In this document: positions 19,554-22,842 of the stretch, piece by piece
Layout of the letters: each line of letters starts with the position of its first letter
Numbering within the stretch: the stretch's first letter is position 1
Assembly: GCA_030656555.1 (NCBI GenBank)
Contig: JAUSPN010000035.1
Span: 1 to 32,428, forward strand
From: Candidatus Desulfaltia sp.
Lineage (GTDB): Bacteria > Desulfobacterota > Desulfobacteria > Desulfobacterales > ETH-SRB1
Length of the DNA: 32,428 nt
Reading direction: 5' to 3'
The notes under the pieces: generated by a model
Seen by the model: the letters and a program-made list of their open reading frames with translations, nothing else
Database searches by the model: none
Told to the model about the DNA's origin: nothing
Program-made: the position numbers and the translations under genes

Positions 19554-19585
19554 AGGATTTAAAAATTAAGAATATAACTATAAGG

Positions 19586-20260
19586 TTATCTGGTTTCAAC
19601 CTGACCCTCGACAGCATCTCCCTGTTGGTAGTCTGGAGCATAAATGTCTCTTTCCCGTTGTTTCTGTTCGCCACCCATGTCATATTGCTCGAAGCCCGGA
19701 GCATAAGTATCAACCTGACGTCCTGGTCCGGAGTCGGTCTTTTCCCGGTTAGAACCACCAAGACTTTCGAAACCAAGCGGTTCATTTCCACGGGCGGGTG
19801 GAAGATTCTCCTGGATAGATTTATCAAAAATATCTCTTTCCCGTTGTTTCTGTTCGCCACCCATGTCATATTGCTCGAAGCTCGGAGCATAAGTATCAAC
19901 CTGACGTCCTGGTCCGGAGTCGGTCTTTTCCCGGTCGGAACCACCAAGACTTTCGAAACGGAGCGGTTCATTTCGCCTCGCGGGTGGAAGATTCTTCCGA
20001 ATAGATTCATCAACTGTTGCCTGGAGTGCTTTACTCAATTCTGCAGCATTGGATGCCGGGAGATAAGAGCCTCCACCACTCTTGGCTATTTCCTGCAATT
20101 GTTTCTCTTCATTTGAGTTTTTCTTGATGTCGAATCCGATAACCTCGATATCAATCTGCATTCCACTGCCCTGTTCCCCGCTTTGTGCCAACCCCGTCAA
20201 AATCCAAGTTAAACAAACACATATTATGAAAGCAATTTTAATTTTGAAAAGATATCTCAT
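19586..20260 (-). CDS. Exported protein with VWA C-terminal-like segment and two 62-residue tandem repeats
   Basis: The 224-residue product begins with a signal peptide (about 1-25, cleavage near GLAQ). Residues about 36-82 read IDIEVIGFDI...EKQLQEIAKSGGGSYLPASNAAELSKAL, the usual final strand and helix of von Willebrand A domains in Ca-activated channel-type proteins. No MIDAS motif is present. Residues 84-145 and 146-207 are near-identical 62-residue, hydrophilic, probably disordered repeats, each with NLPPAR, FESLGG, TDSGPGRQVDTYAP and MGGEQKQRERDI. A short third start (APDYQQGD) follows. GGGGGAG precedes the ATG. It lies 9 bases after the VWA gene, whose domain lacks just this segment. 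Function is unknown. Confidence 0.7.
   Translation of the reverse strand: MRYLFKIKIAFIICVCLTWILTGLAQSGEQGSGMQIDIEVIGFDIKKNSNEEKQLQEIAKSGGGSYLPASNAAELSKALQATVDESIRKNLPPARRNEPLRFESLGGSDREKTDSGPGRQVDTYAPSFEQYDMGGEQKQRERDIFDKSIQENLPPARGNEPLGFESLGGSNREKTDSGPGRQVDTYAPGFEQYDMGGEQKQRERDIYAPDYQQGDAVEGQVETR
19640..20011 (-). repeat. Two tandem 186-bp repeats inside the exported protein gene
   Basis: Units at 19826-20011 and 19640-19825 are almost identical in DNA and encode 62 residues each. The period is a multiple of three, so the frame is kept and even the opposite strand stays open. High identity at silent positions points to recent duplication. Confidence 0.85.
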
Positions 20261-20269
20261 GATCTCCCC

Positions 20270-21502
20270 CTACTTGATATCAAAAATCTTGTAAGTCGTA
20301 CAGATGGTTTTAGCCGCTTCAACGGGATTACCACTGCAACTTTCTCCGCCATCGGAAAGAAGAATAATTTTCCCTCTTTTCCCGCTGCCGTTTTGTCTTA
20401 GATAATTTGATGCTTTTTGCAGGGAATAAGCGATAGGAGTTCCCCCTCGAGCTCCAAAATTGAGTTTAGATATAATATTATTAGGATCTTGCGTAAAGCC
20501 CTGCAACATGCTGCATGAGCCACAGTCACTAAATACAAATAAAGCCATTTCCACTCCCAGGTCGGTTTTTAAAGCCGCGACGGTATCGCGTACTGCGTTC
20601 TTGGCTGCGTCGAGTTTGGACCCCGACATGCTTCCTGAAGCATCAACGACAAAAACTATGGAAAAGTTTATGTCTATGGGAGTTTCGCATTCGTTATATC
20701 CTCGGAAAAATTCTTGTTTAACTACATTCTCTTTTTCTATCCATTTAGCATATTCTTGCCCGACAATTTCTTTTATATCCTCCCGATTGACTGTTTGGAC
20801 CTTTCTGCCCAAAAGACAACCGTGTTTGTAAGCAGCAGTTTTTAGGGCCTCTTCCGGATCATAATTCCCGTCAATTTTTGTTACATTAATGTAAACCCAG
20901 TCAAAACTTTTCGCCCAGTCTTCAAACCTCGTATATTTTTTCTTCCAGGCATCAAGTACCAGTGCATTTTTCCATGCCTCTTTTTCTAAATCATTGAGTC
21001 TGCCGTCAGAACTAAAAATATCATTCCATGATGGAATTTTACCATTTACAAGTATAGGAGCTCCATTAATGTCAGTTGGAACAACGAGATTGGCCCCATG
21101 AGCCCATTCCTTTCCAAAATAATTTTTGTTTCCTCTTATAACAAGTATTTTGCTATTAAAGCTGTCTGGATAGTGTTTTGCAATATACATGGCAAGATCA
21201 CCGCAATTACCGACACCGGTTTGTTCTACCACCTCGGCATAGGCTCCTCCTAACTTTTTCCCTGTCCCCAGAAGGTAGGGGATTCTATAGGTAACGATTT
21301 GAGAGATGTAAAATGGTGTATAAGGTAAAGAACCAGAAACAAAACCACTGAGACGAGTACCTAAAATATTGTTAAACCACCTTATAGAATCTTTTTCATT
21401 AGGCCCCCAGTTTTCATCTGCAGTAGCTGAATAAGAAAATCCAACAAGTCCAATGAAAATCGCAATAAAAAAGATAATTAGATGGATAATTGGCTTTTTC
21501 AT
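20270..21502 (-). CDS. Exported Cys/His protease-like plus von Willebrand A domain protein
   Basis: The start is ATG 21502, 8 bases after AGGAGG; the GTG six bases upstream is too close to it. The product has 410 residues. A signal peptide spans about 1-28. Residues about 85-165 have GVGNCGDLAMYIAKHY (C100) and EWAHGANLVV (H135), a Cys-His arrangement that resembles transglutaminase/papain-like peptidases, though I could not assign the family. Residues 281-410 are a VWA domain with the MIDAS DASGSMS (D287, S289, S291), T355 in RGGTPIA and D384 in LSDGGES. It ends abruptly after KIFDIK, before the last VWA strand. This missing segment appears in the next gene. It is probably periplasmic. Confidence 0.75.
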   Translation of the reverse strand: MKKPIIHLIIFFIAIFIGLVGFSYSATADENWGPNEKDSIRWFNNILGTRLSGFVSGSLPYTPFYISQIVTYRIPYLLGTGKKLGGAYAEVVEQTGVGNCGDLAMYIAKHYPDSFNSKILVIRGNKNYFGKEWAHGANLVVPTDINGAPILVNGKIPSWNDIFSSDGRLNDLEKEAWKNALVLDAWKKKYTRFEDWAKSFDWVYINVTKIDGNYDPEEALKTAAYKHGCLLGRKVQTVNREDIKEIVGQEYAKWIEKENVVKQEFFRGYNECETPIDINFSIVFVVDASGSMSGSKLDAAKNAVRDTVAALKTDLGVEMALFVFSDCGSCSMLQGFTQDPNNIISKLNFGARGGTPIAYSLQKASNYLRQNGSGKRGKIILLSDGGESCSGNPVEAAKTICTTYKIFDIK

Positions 21503-21901
21503 GCACACAACCTCCTTTCTGTTTTAGGTTCCCAATGAACTGCCTCGTCGCAAGCAGCGTTGCATCTTCAAAAGTATTAAACGCCCCAAAGGTGCGGAAA
21601 ATAAAACCCGGCGCCCAAAGGACGTGGCTTTGATTTTCACCCCGGAGAGGTTCAGTTTACCTCTATTGGAATGGTGGAATGATGGAAAATATGACCTGGC
21701 CCAGAAAACCAAGTTTTCCATGCTGGAATAAATAAGAATATATCAAACAAAGATCAATTGTAAAGTGGTTTTCAGAGGTTAAGGTAATCCATGGGCATGC
21801 AAATCTGTCCACAACACAGCGTTATCTTGGCAATATCGGTTAAACAGAAGCTATTCGATGTATTGGCTGTTGTTCTTCCGGGCATACGGATCACGCGCCA
21901 C
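21503..21901. other. 399-base intergenic region
   Basis: Apart from the Shine-Dalgarno of the VWA gene at 21511-21516, I see no gene here with a start codon and ribosome site. A plus-strand open frame without ATG (21531-21731) ends FSMLE. TGGAATGGTGGAATGATGG at 21669-21687 is a short repeat of TGGAATGG units. The promoter of the VWA pair must lie in this region, but I cannot pick it out. Confidence 0.4.
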
Positions 21902-22645
21902 TTATTCCATGTTCCGAATTCGCACCTCAATTCCCTTTTGATCTTGAAGCAATTTCATAAGGTTCGAGGTATCTGTGTCGCCAAAATGATAGGGGTATAA
22001 AATTTTTGGCCGAAACGCGGTCGCAGCATCGACGACCATCTCAGGTGTCATCGTATGCGGCAGGTTCATTGGCAAAAAGGCGCGGTCGATCTCTCGCAGT
22101 GATTTCATTTCAGGGATGTTTTCTGTGTCCCCGGCAACATACACCCGCTTATCCCCAAAGGTGATGATGTACCCGTTCCCTACACCTTTGGGATGAAAGG
22201 GTTGTCCGTTATCGCGCCTATGAATGAGATTATAAGCCGGAATCGCCTCTATTTTCAATCCGCTTACGGTTTGGACATCTCCGTTTTTCATAACAATGCC
22301 GTTTTTTACCTGTTTTGAACAGGTTTGGGTCAACACTACCTTTGTTTTTTCAGTCCGGACAAGTTCCAGTGCTTTCAAGTCCAAGTGGTCGCGGTGCTCA
22401 TGGGTGATCAAGACAAGATCCGCTTTCGGGAACTTCGCAAAATCTGCGACGTTGGTGTATGGATCAACATGGATAATCTTGGTGCCAAAAGTAAACATCA
22501 GTGTCCCATGTCCGATAAATGTGATCTTTAAATCATCGGTGGATGTTTTTATGATATTTGTTTCATATGTTTTTTTGACGGACGCTGAAGCTGAGAACGT
22601 TAAAGTCATGCTGAAAAACAAAAGTAAAAAGCATATTTTACCCAT
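21902..22645 (-). CDS. Exported metallo-beta-lactamase fold hydrolase (UlaG/UPF0173-like)
   Basis: The start is ATG 22645, 7 bases from AAGGAGG. The product has 247 residues with a signal peptide (about 1-22, ending SASA). The metal-binding HEHRDH motif is at 82-87, and further motifs are IIHVDPY, YVAGDTE and the C-terminal ILYPYHFGDT. This resembles the UlaG/UPF0173 branch of beta-lactamase fold enzymes. An exported copy is less common than the cytoplasmic type. The substrate is unknown. It is a single gene, divergent from the PxxKW gene. Confidence 0.85.
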   Translation of the reverse strand: MGKICFLLLFFSMTLTFSASASVKKTYETNIIKTSTDDLKITFIGHGTLMFTFGTKIIHVDPYTNVADFAKFPKADLVLITHEHRDHLDLKALELVRTEKTKVVLTQTCSKQVKNGIVMKNGDVQTVSGLKIEAIPAYNLIHRRDNGQPFHPKGVGNGYIITFGDKRVYVAGDTENIPEMKSLREIDRAFLPMNLPHTMTPEMVVDAATAFRPKILYPYHFGDTDTSNLMKLLQDQKGIEVRIRNME

Positions 22646-22842
22646 CGTTATACCTCCTTCACGAAGTGGCTGGTTTGCAAGCAATTTTGTGAAGCTCCCC
22701 TTGACCCCGCCCTAAAGGTCTGGGCTTGCGGGAAGCTTCAATTGTTTTTAATATCATACCTGTATCCACACCTCATCACAACCAGAAACACTTTGTTTAG
22801 CAATTATAATTCTAAAGGTAGGAATTTATAATTAAAATTTTA

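Follow-up and report, generated by a model that had tools for sequence, protein, structure and literature searches.

Two adjacent genes on the minus strand of the window, here named P1 and P2, encode parts of one von Willebrand A (VWA) domain that are complementary as judged by sequence, and P2 has a separate start. The window is the whole analyzed stretch of 32,428 nucleotides from Candidatus Desulfaltia sp. The best explanation, to which we assign a probability of roughly 0.55, is fission of a gene for an exported VWA protein, with reassembly of P1 and P2 in the periplasm. The VWA domain would be complete only if both proteins meet outside the cytoplasm; in the relatives examined, it is a single chain. 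We regard P1-P2 as a variant of a known domain; it was seen in a single genome, which limits the claim.

The gene pair and its junction

P1 (410 aa; positions 20270-21502, minus strand) comprises a signal-peptide-like start, an N-terminal region, and a VWA core with a MIDAS. P2 (224 aa) occupies positions 19586-20260 of the same strand. The ATG of P2 lies 9 nt past the P1 stop, and both genes share one reading frame. The P1 stop codon TAG and the 9-nt gap, which contains GGGGAG and is in frame with P2, are located at 20261-20272 (minus strand). These coordinates and the 9-base gap are as given in the earlier note. P2 has its own Shine-Dalgarno-like site, with a duplex energy of -9.3 kcal/mol versus -12.3 for P1.

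Signal-peptide-like starts were found in residues 1-28 of P1 (21419-21502, minus strand) and residues 1-25 of P2 (20186-20260, minus strand), the cleavage points being placed by eye. The hydrophobic 15-mers in these starts have mean hydropathy values of 3.1 and 2.56, respectively. Base shuffles of the gap, which keep base composition only, gave an in-frame ATG with such a hydrophobic stretch in 4 of 20,000 cases. Judged by hydropathy and these shuffles, export of both P1 and P2 is likely. A signal peptide of P2 followed by IEVIGFDI... had been described earlier; a signal-peptide-like start and then IEVIGFDI...GGGSYLPA are seen here. The claim that the split is not a simple frameshift is supported, with both genes in the same frame and P2 having its own Shine-Dalgarno-like site and a signal-peptide-like start that is rare in shuffles.

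P1 ends with EAAKTICTTYKIFDIK. Inspection of the alignments by eye puts its final residues on the first half of the following strand, and P2 brings this strand as well (QIDIEVIGF). About seven residues at the cut seem to be present twice, at the end of P1 and in P2. If cleaved after A25, a point chosen by eye, mature P2 begins about 10 residues ahead of the strand formed by residues 35-43.

Two complementary parts of a VWA domain

The VWA core of P1 (residues 281-410; 20273-20662, minus strand) contains the MIDAS residues D287, S289, S291, T355, and D384, exactly as previously listed. All five belong to the 8 invariant columns of an alignment of 10 rows, herein A5. P1 matched Pfam VWA_2 with 56 bits (cut-off 27) and Pfam VWA with 36.7 bits (cut-off 23.8), the latter match spanning only positions 2-128 of 174. 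NCBIfam rows across the core had a best E-value of 4e-7, their scores falling far short of the cut-offs. The earlier note held that P1 ends right before the last strand of the domain. The end is indeed missing, but the missing part includes two strands and two helices rather than the last strand only.

This missing end (strand, helix, strand, helix) corresponds to residues 30-90 of P2 (19991-20173, minus strand), which keep the family pattern VIGFD and GGGxY. No Pfam or NCBIfam match was found for the whole P2 at E ≤ 1, and its first 95 residues had only a weak and unrelated match (E 0.1). A profile was built from 17 one-chain relatives, taken from the 20 non-window frames matching P2 at E ≤ 1 (L007, L025, and L026 were left out). 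With this profile, neither protein contains a complete VWA domain in one chain: P1 covers positions 5-132 (62.2 bits) and P2 covers positions 135-188 (41.7 bits) of 191. Among the 364 window frames of at least 40 aa, P1 and P2 were the only ones below E = 1. Residues 26-95 of P2 score 45.5 bits with the same profile, the best of 5000 shuffles being 6.4 bits. Thus, the profile ranges, the specificity among window frames, and the shuffle scores show that the likeness of P2 is real and that the two parts are complementary. In all 17 relatives, the P2 match starts no more than about 10 residues from the end of the P1 match in the same protein. Directly adjacent P1 and P2 matches were found, for example, in L004 (41-167 and 168-225), L010 (58-197 and 198-250), and L027 (500-635 and 636-692).

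The part of P2 that follows the VWA end is a hydrophilic tail carrying a repeat. Two direct 186-nt copies with 92% identity (19639-20010, minus strand) cover mostly this C-terminal tail. Compared in register, the copies differ in 14 of 62 codons, including 8 residue-changing and 6 silent differences, with no indels. The ratio of silent to changing differences may favor constraint, but only mildly.

The structure was predicted for a covalent read-through P1-P2 chain with alignment A5, the other rows of which are one-chain VWA segments from 9 of 17 viral loci, picked by eye for a regular VWA. The viral ends were aligned onto P2, with a gap opened across the junction that is ragged in several rows. 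Without an alignment, the fold was useless (pLDDT 35). With A5, ten-residue means of pLDDT were 75-94 for P1 residues 281-400, 83-96 for model residues 451-510 (P2 37-96), and 56-65 over the junction (model residues 401-450); for P1 1-275 and the tail of P2, most means were lower than 60. In this model, P2 contributes a strand (35-43), a helix (50-61), a strand (66-69), and a helix (72-90). A modelled helix in the tail of P1 extends into the read-through residues (393-418); model residues 449-457 (P2 35-43) form the next strand. Both parts are spanned by the matches to solved VWA chains, of which 6tnj is the best (model residues 275-508, Z 23.9, rmsd 2.0, 184 residues aligned). In the viral structure library, the top matches were VWA proteins only, none of them more specific. 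Both parts are thus predicted to fit one VWA fold. The earlier suggestion of a split protein that reassembles outside the membrane agrees with the model to the extent that one VWA domain is built from both parts; this is a prediction biased towards reassembly by the one-chain rows of the alignment and the covalent query.

For the N-terminal region of P1, about 250 residues, no relatives were detected in the searches run. Residues 35-277 had no relatives at E ≤ 0.01 in 394 other genomes of the phylum. When the whole P1 was compared with 388 other genomes of the class, none of the matches listed begins before residue 257; at most four candidates were scored per genome, so a weak N-terminal match could be missed. 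Among the P1 matches listed for 9 plasmid records and 1 phage record, none begins before residue 261. Inside P1 1-275, the libraries gave only weak rows (NCBIfam 258-287, E 0.066; PHROGs, from E 0.083; Pfam, E 0.16), PADLOC gave no match, and residues 31-277 had no match among PDB sequences up to E 10. A pattern scan, of a type that detects close relatives only, found none in the viral contigs. In the genome contigs, its sole locus (L032) has a 20-residue match in a different kind of protein and was judged to be a chance hit. Residues 31-277 (20672-21412) contain NCGDL (C100), AHGANL (H135), and VPTD (D144). By eye, these residues may resemble the set of a Cys-His-Asp enzyme, such as a cysteine peptidase or a transglutaminase-like protein; no fitting Pfam match to such a fold was found in P1 1-275, where the model is poor.

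Genomic setting and origin of the split

Since the site upstream of pdxA is empty in the same-genus genomes G014, G009, and G012, P1-P2 can be assigned to an inserted segment of about 2.2 kb (19558-21742). The ends of this segment contain a 16-nt imperfect direct repeat (19561-19576 and 21727-21742, 88% identical). Upstream of pdxA, both G014 and G009 run straight into the counterpart of the window from position 21727 onward. In G012, the counterpart of the window gene at 21902-22684, a metallo-hydrolase by eye, is located within about 70 bp of pdxA. The pdxA gene was detected in 14 of 17 genomes of the family, window included. Its neighborhoods were compared in ten other stretches, five of them from the same genus and several stopping at contig ends, and neither P1 nor P2 was found in any of the ten (tblastn, E ≤ 1e-3). 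In the family search with P1, the sole other match was VWA-sized and located in G006 (E 6.3e-5).

The spot upstream of pdxA (19558-19585 and 21727-21784 in the window; L097-L101) looks like a place of gene gain. At the same spot, G013 (L099) has another short insert, whose ends look inverted by eye, and G011 (L100) has other sequence. A promoter-like match at 21764-21737 sits in the conserved flank of the insert, and P1-P2 may therefore use the former pdxA promoter. Promoter and terminator scans showed no excess over shuffles.

For the origin of the split, the earlier note proposed fission after a partial duplication. Of these two steps, fission is favored, but the partial duplication finds little support beyond an 11-nt near-repeat. 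The signal-peptide regions of P1 and P2 are unlike in DNA, their score being reached by 25% of 2000 shuffles, and so are the two whole genes (57% of 300 shuffles). Derivation of the P2 signal peptide from the start of P1 was rejected, the two regions not being alike. A search of the genome for the source of this signal peptide gave no copy, only short matches, the best other one being 17 nt long (E 0.099). The P1 leader, searched as a repeat, is also present in a single copy in the genome. The near-repeat TTGATATCrAG, found at the end of P1 and in the P2 strand, was equaled by 5.3% of 5000 shuffles in one of three comparisons, and it hints at a trace of local duplication. Because the gap has no copy in the genome and is unlike the start of P1, and because this near-repeat is the sole trace of duplication, fission by insertion or local change is favored over partial gene duplication, though not as a firm answer.

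Interpretation and comparison with other VWA proteins

According to the preferred reading, a ribosome site and a signal peptide would have arisen inside the VWA domain, cutting one gene into P1 and P2. P1 would contribute the first four strands and carry the metal site, and mature P2, translated right after P1 from its own start, would begin with the missing strand-helix-strand-helix. Both proteins would be exported by Sec and would meet in the periplasm, where their back-to-back translation would make for similar amounts. The non-covalent pair would then form a functional MIDAS domain and bind a ligand. The N-terminal part of P1 and the hydrophilic repeats at the end of P2 would hang from the two ends of the domain. 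A more specific proposal, held only tentatively, is that the MIDAS domain is kept split as a working device: P2 would be an end piece exported separately and bearing the last helix, and its assembly with P1 in the periplasm would switch metal and ligand binding on.

A possible but distinctly less probable explanation is that the pair is a remnant of fission, P1 working alone through a truncated VWA or its N-terminal part and P2 being a by-product that no longer pairs. The split is known from one genome, the compared same-genus genomes have no P1-P2 at the site, and the terminal YKIFDIK of P1 could, by alignment, fill part of the missing strand. However, this tail is helical in the model rather than a strand, and P2, instead of decaying, retains the residues typical of the family and has acquired a signal-peptide-like start. 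The common frame and the 11-nt near-repeat on both edges of the gap would also suit read-through of the stop or skipping of the gap by the ribosome, giving one chain in part of the products. We consider this improbable, since the domain of a read-through chain would be interrupted by a hydrophobic helix, the gap resembles a signal peptide, the RNA at the junction does not fold better than shuffles (z -0.56 and 0.62), and the junction had no Rfam match up to E 1.

Still less probable is that P2 serves another partner and that its likeness to the missing end of P1 reflects general family ancestry. The VWA part of P2 does match VWA proteins generally, but P2 follows P1 after 9 nt and supplies the very part that P1 is without, and the one other place matching Pfam VWA_2 in the genome has, by eye, a frame with a full-length domain. 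An assembly or sequencing artefact joining unrelated pieces is the least probable of all: the genome is in 107 contigs, but a chance join would hardly yield complementary domain parts together with a ribosome site and a signal-peptide-like start. If fission with reassembly is true, P1-P2 represents an adhesion-type domain that is naturally split outside the cytoplasm. The cut would lie near a structural boundary, and a signal peptide born inside a gene would have rescued the domain. It would also show a route from a single domain to an obligate two-protein complex and provide a natural split MIDAS pair for probing how the domain end controls binding.

The arrangement of P1 and P2 is known from one genome, with no conservation to show that the split is kept. 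Matches to P1 at E ≤ 1e-5 were found in 61 of 389 genomes of the class, and residues 1-95 of P2 matched 54 places, spread over 47 of the 379 class genomes searched, window included in both cases. No second split of this kind was found in the 43 of the 53 other P2 places that were read, and the remaining 10 were judged by frame length alone. The 43 places are in loci fetched with P2 1-95 (29), in a further fetch (8), and in the class search with P1 (6). In the 82 loci examined here, found via P1 or P2, the domain is full or almost full in 67 frames (58 distinct) outside the window. By the cut used, another 6 frames, in 5 loci, are partial. By eye, the partial frames in L060 and L047 are cut by the end of the locus, the one in L066 is divergent but complete, and no signal peptide occurs at the cut in any of the five loci. 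L074 (2500-3500; G321) contains an incomplete VWA gene broken by stops and frame changes, and L073 (500-1427; G043) a VWA gene without its first part. Among plasmids, one VWA protein matched P2. Literature searches on split or two-chain domains and on VWA adhesins showed no split VWA among the entries listed.

The earlier note proposed a search for single-chain homologues; the relatives examined carry P1 and P2 matches in one chain. One-chain VWA proteins of the same class (for example, L004, L017, and L010) share with the pair a MIDAS and contiguous P1-then-P2 matches; in contrast to the pair, their VWA is uninterrupted, and they have no sequence match to P1 1-275. A Rhodococcus VWA protein (NZ_CP133330.1) has 42.3% identity to P1 281-406, and its chain continues, by eye, with a P2-like part; unlike P1-P2, it is one chain, annotated as belonging to the cutinase family. 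The best structural match of the combined model is the VWA of Mfa5 (6tnj), which has 22% identity and, in contrast to the pair analyzed here, is one chain and part of a pilus tip protein.
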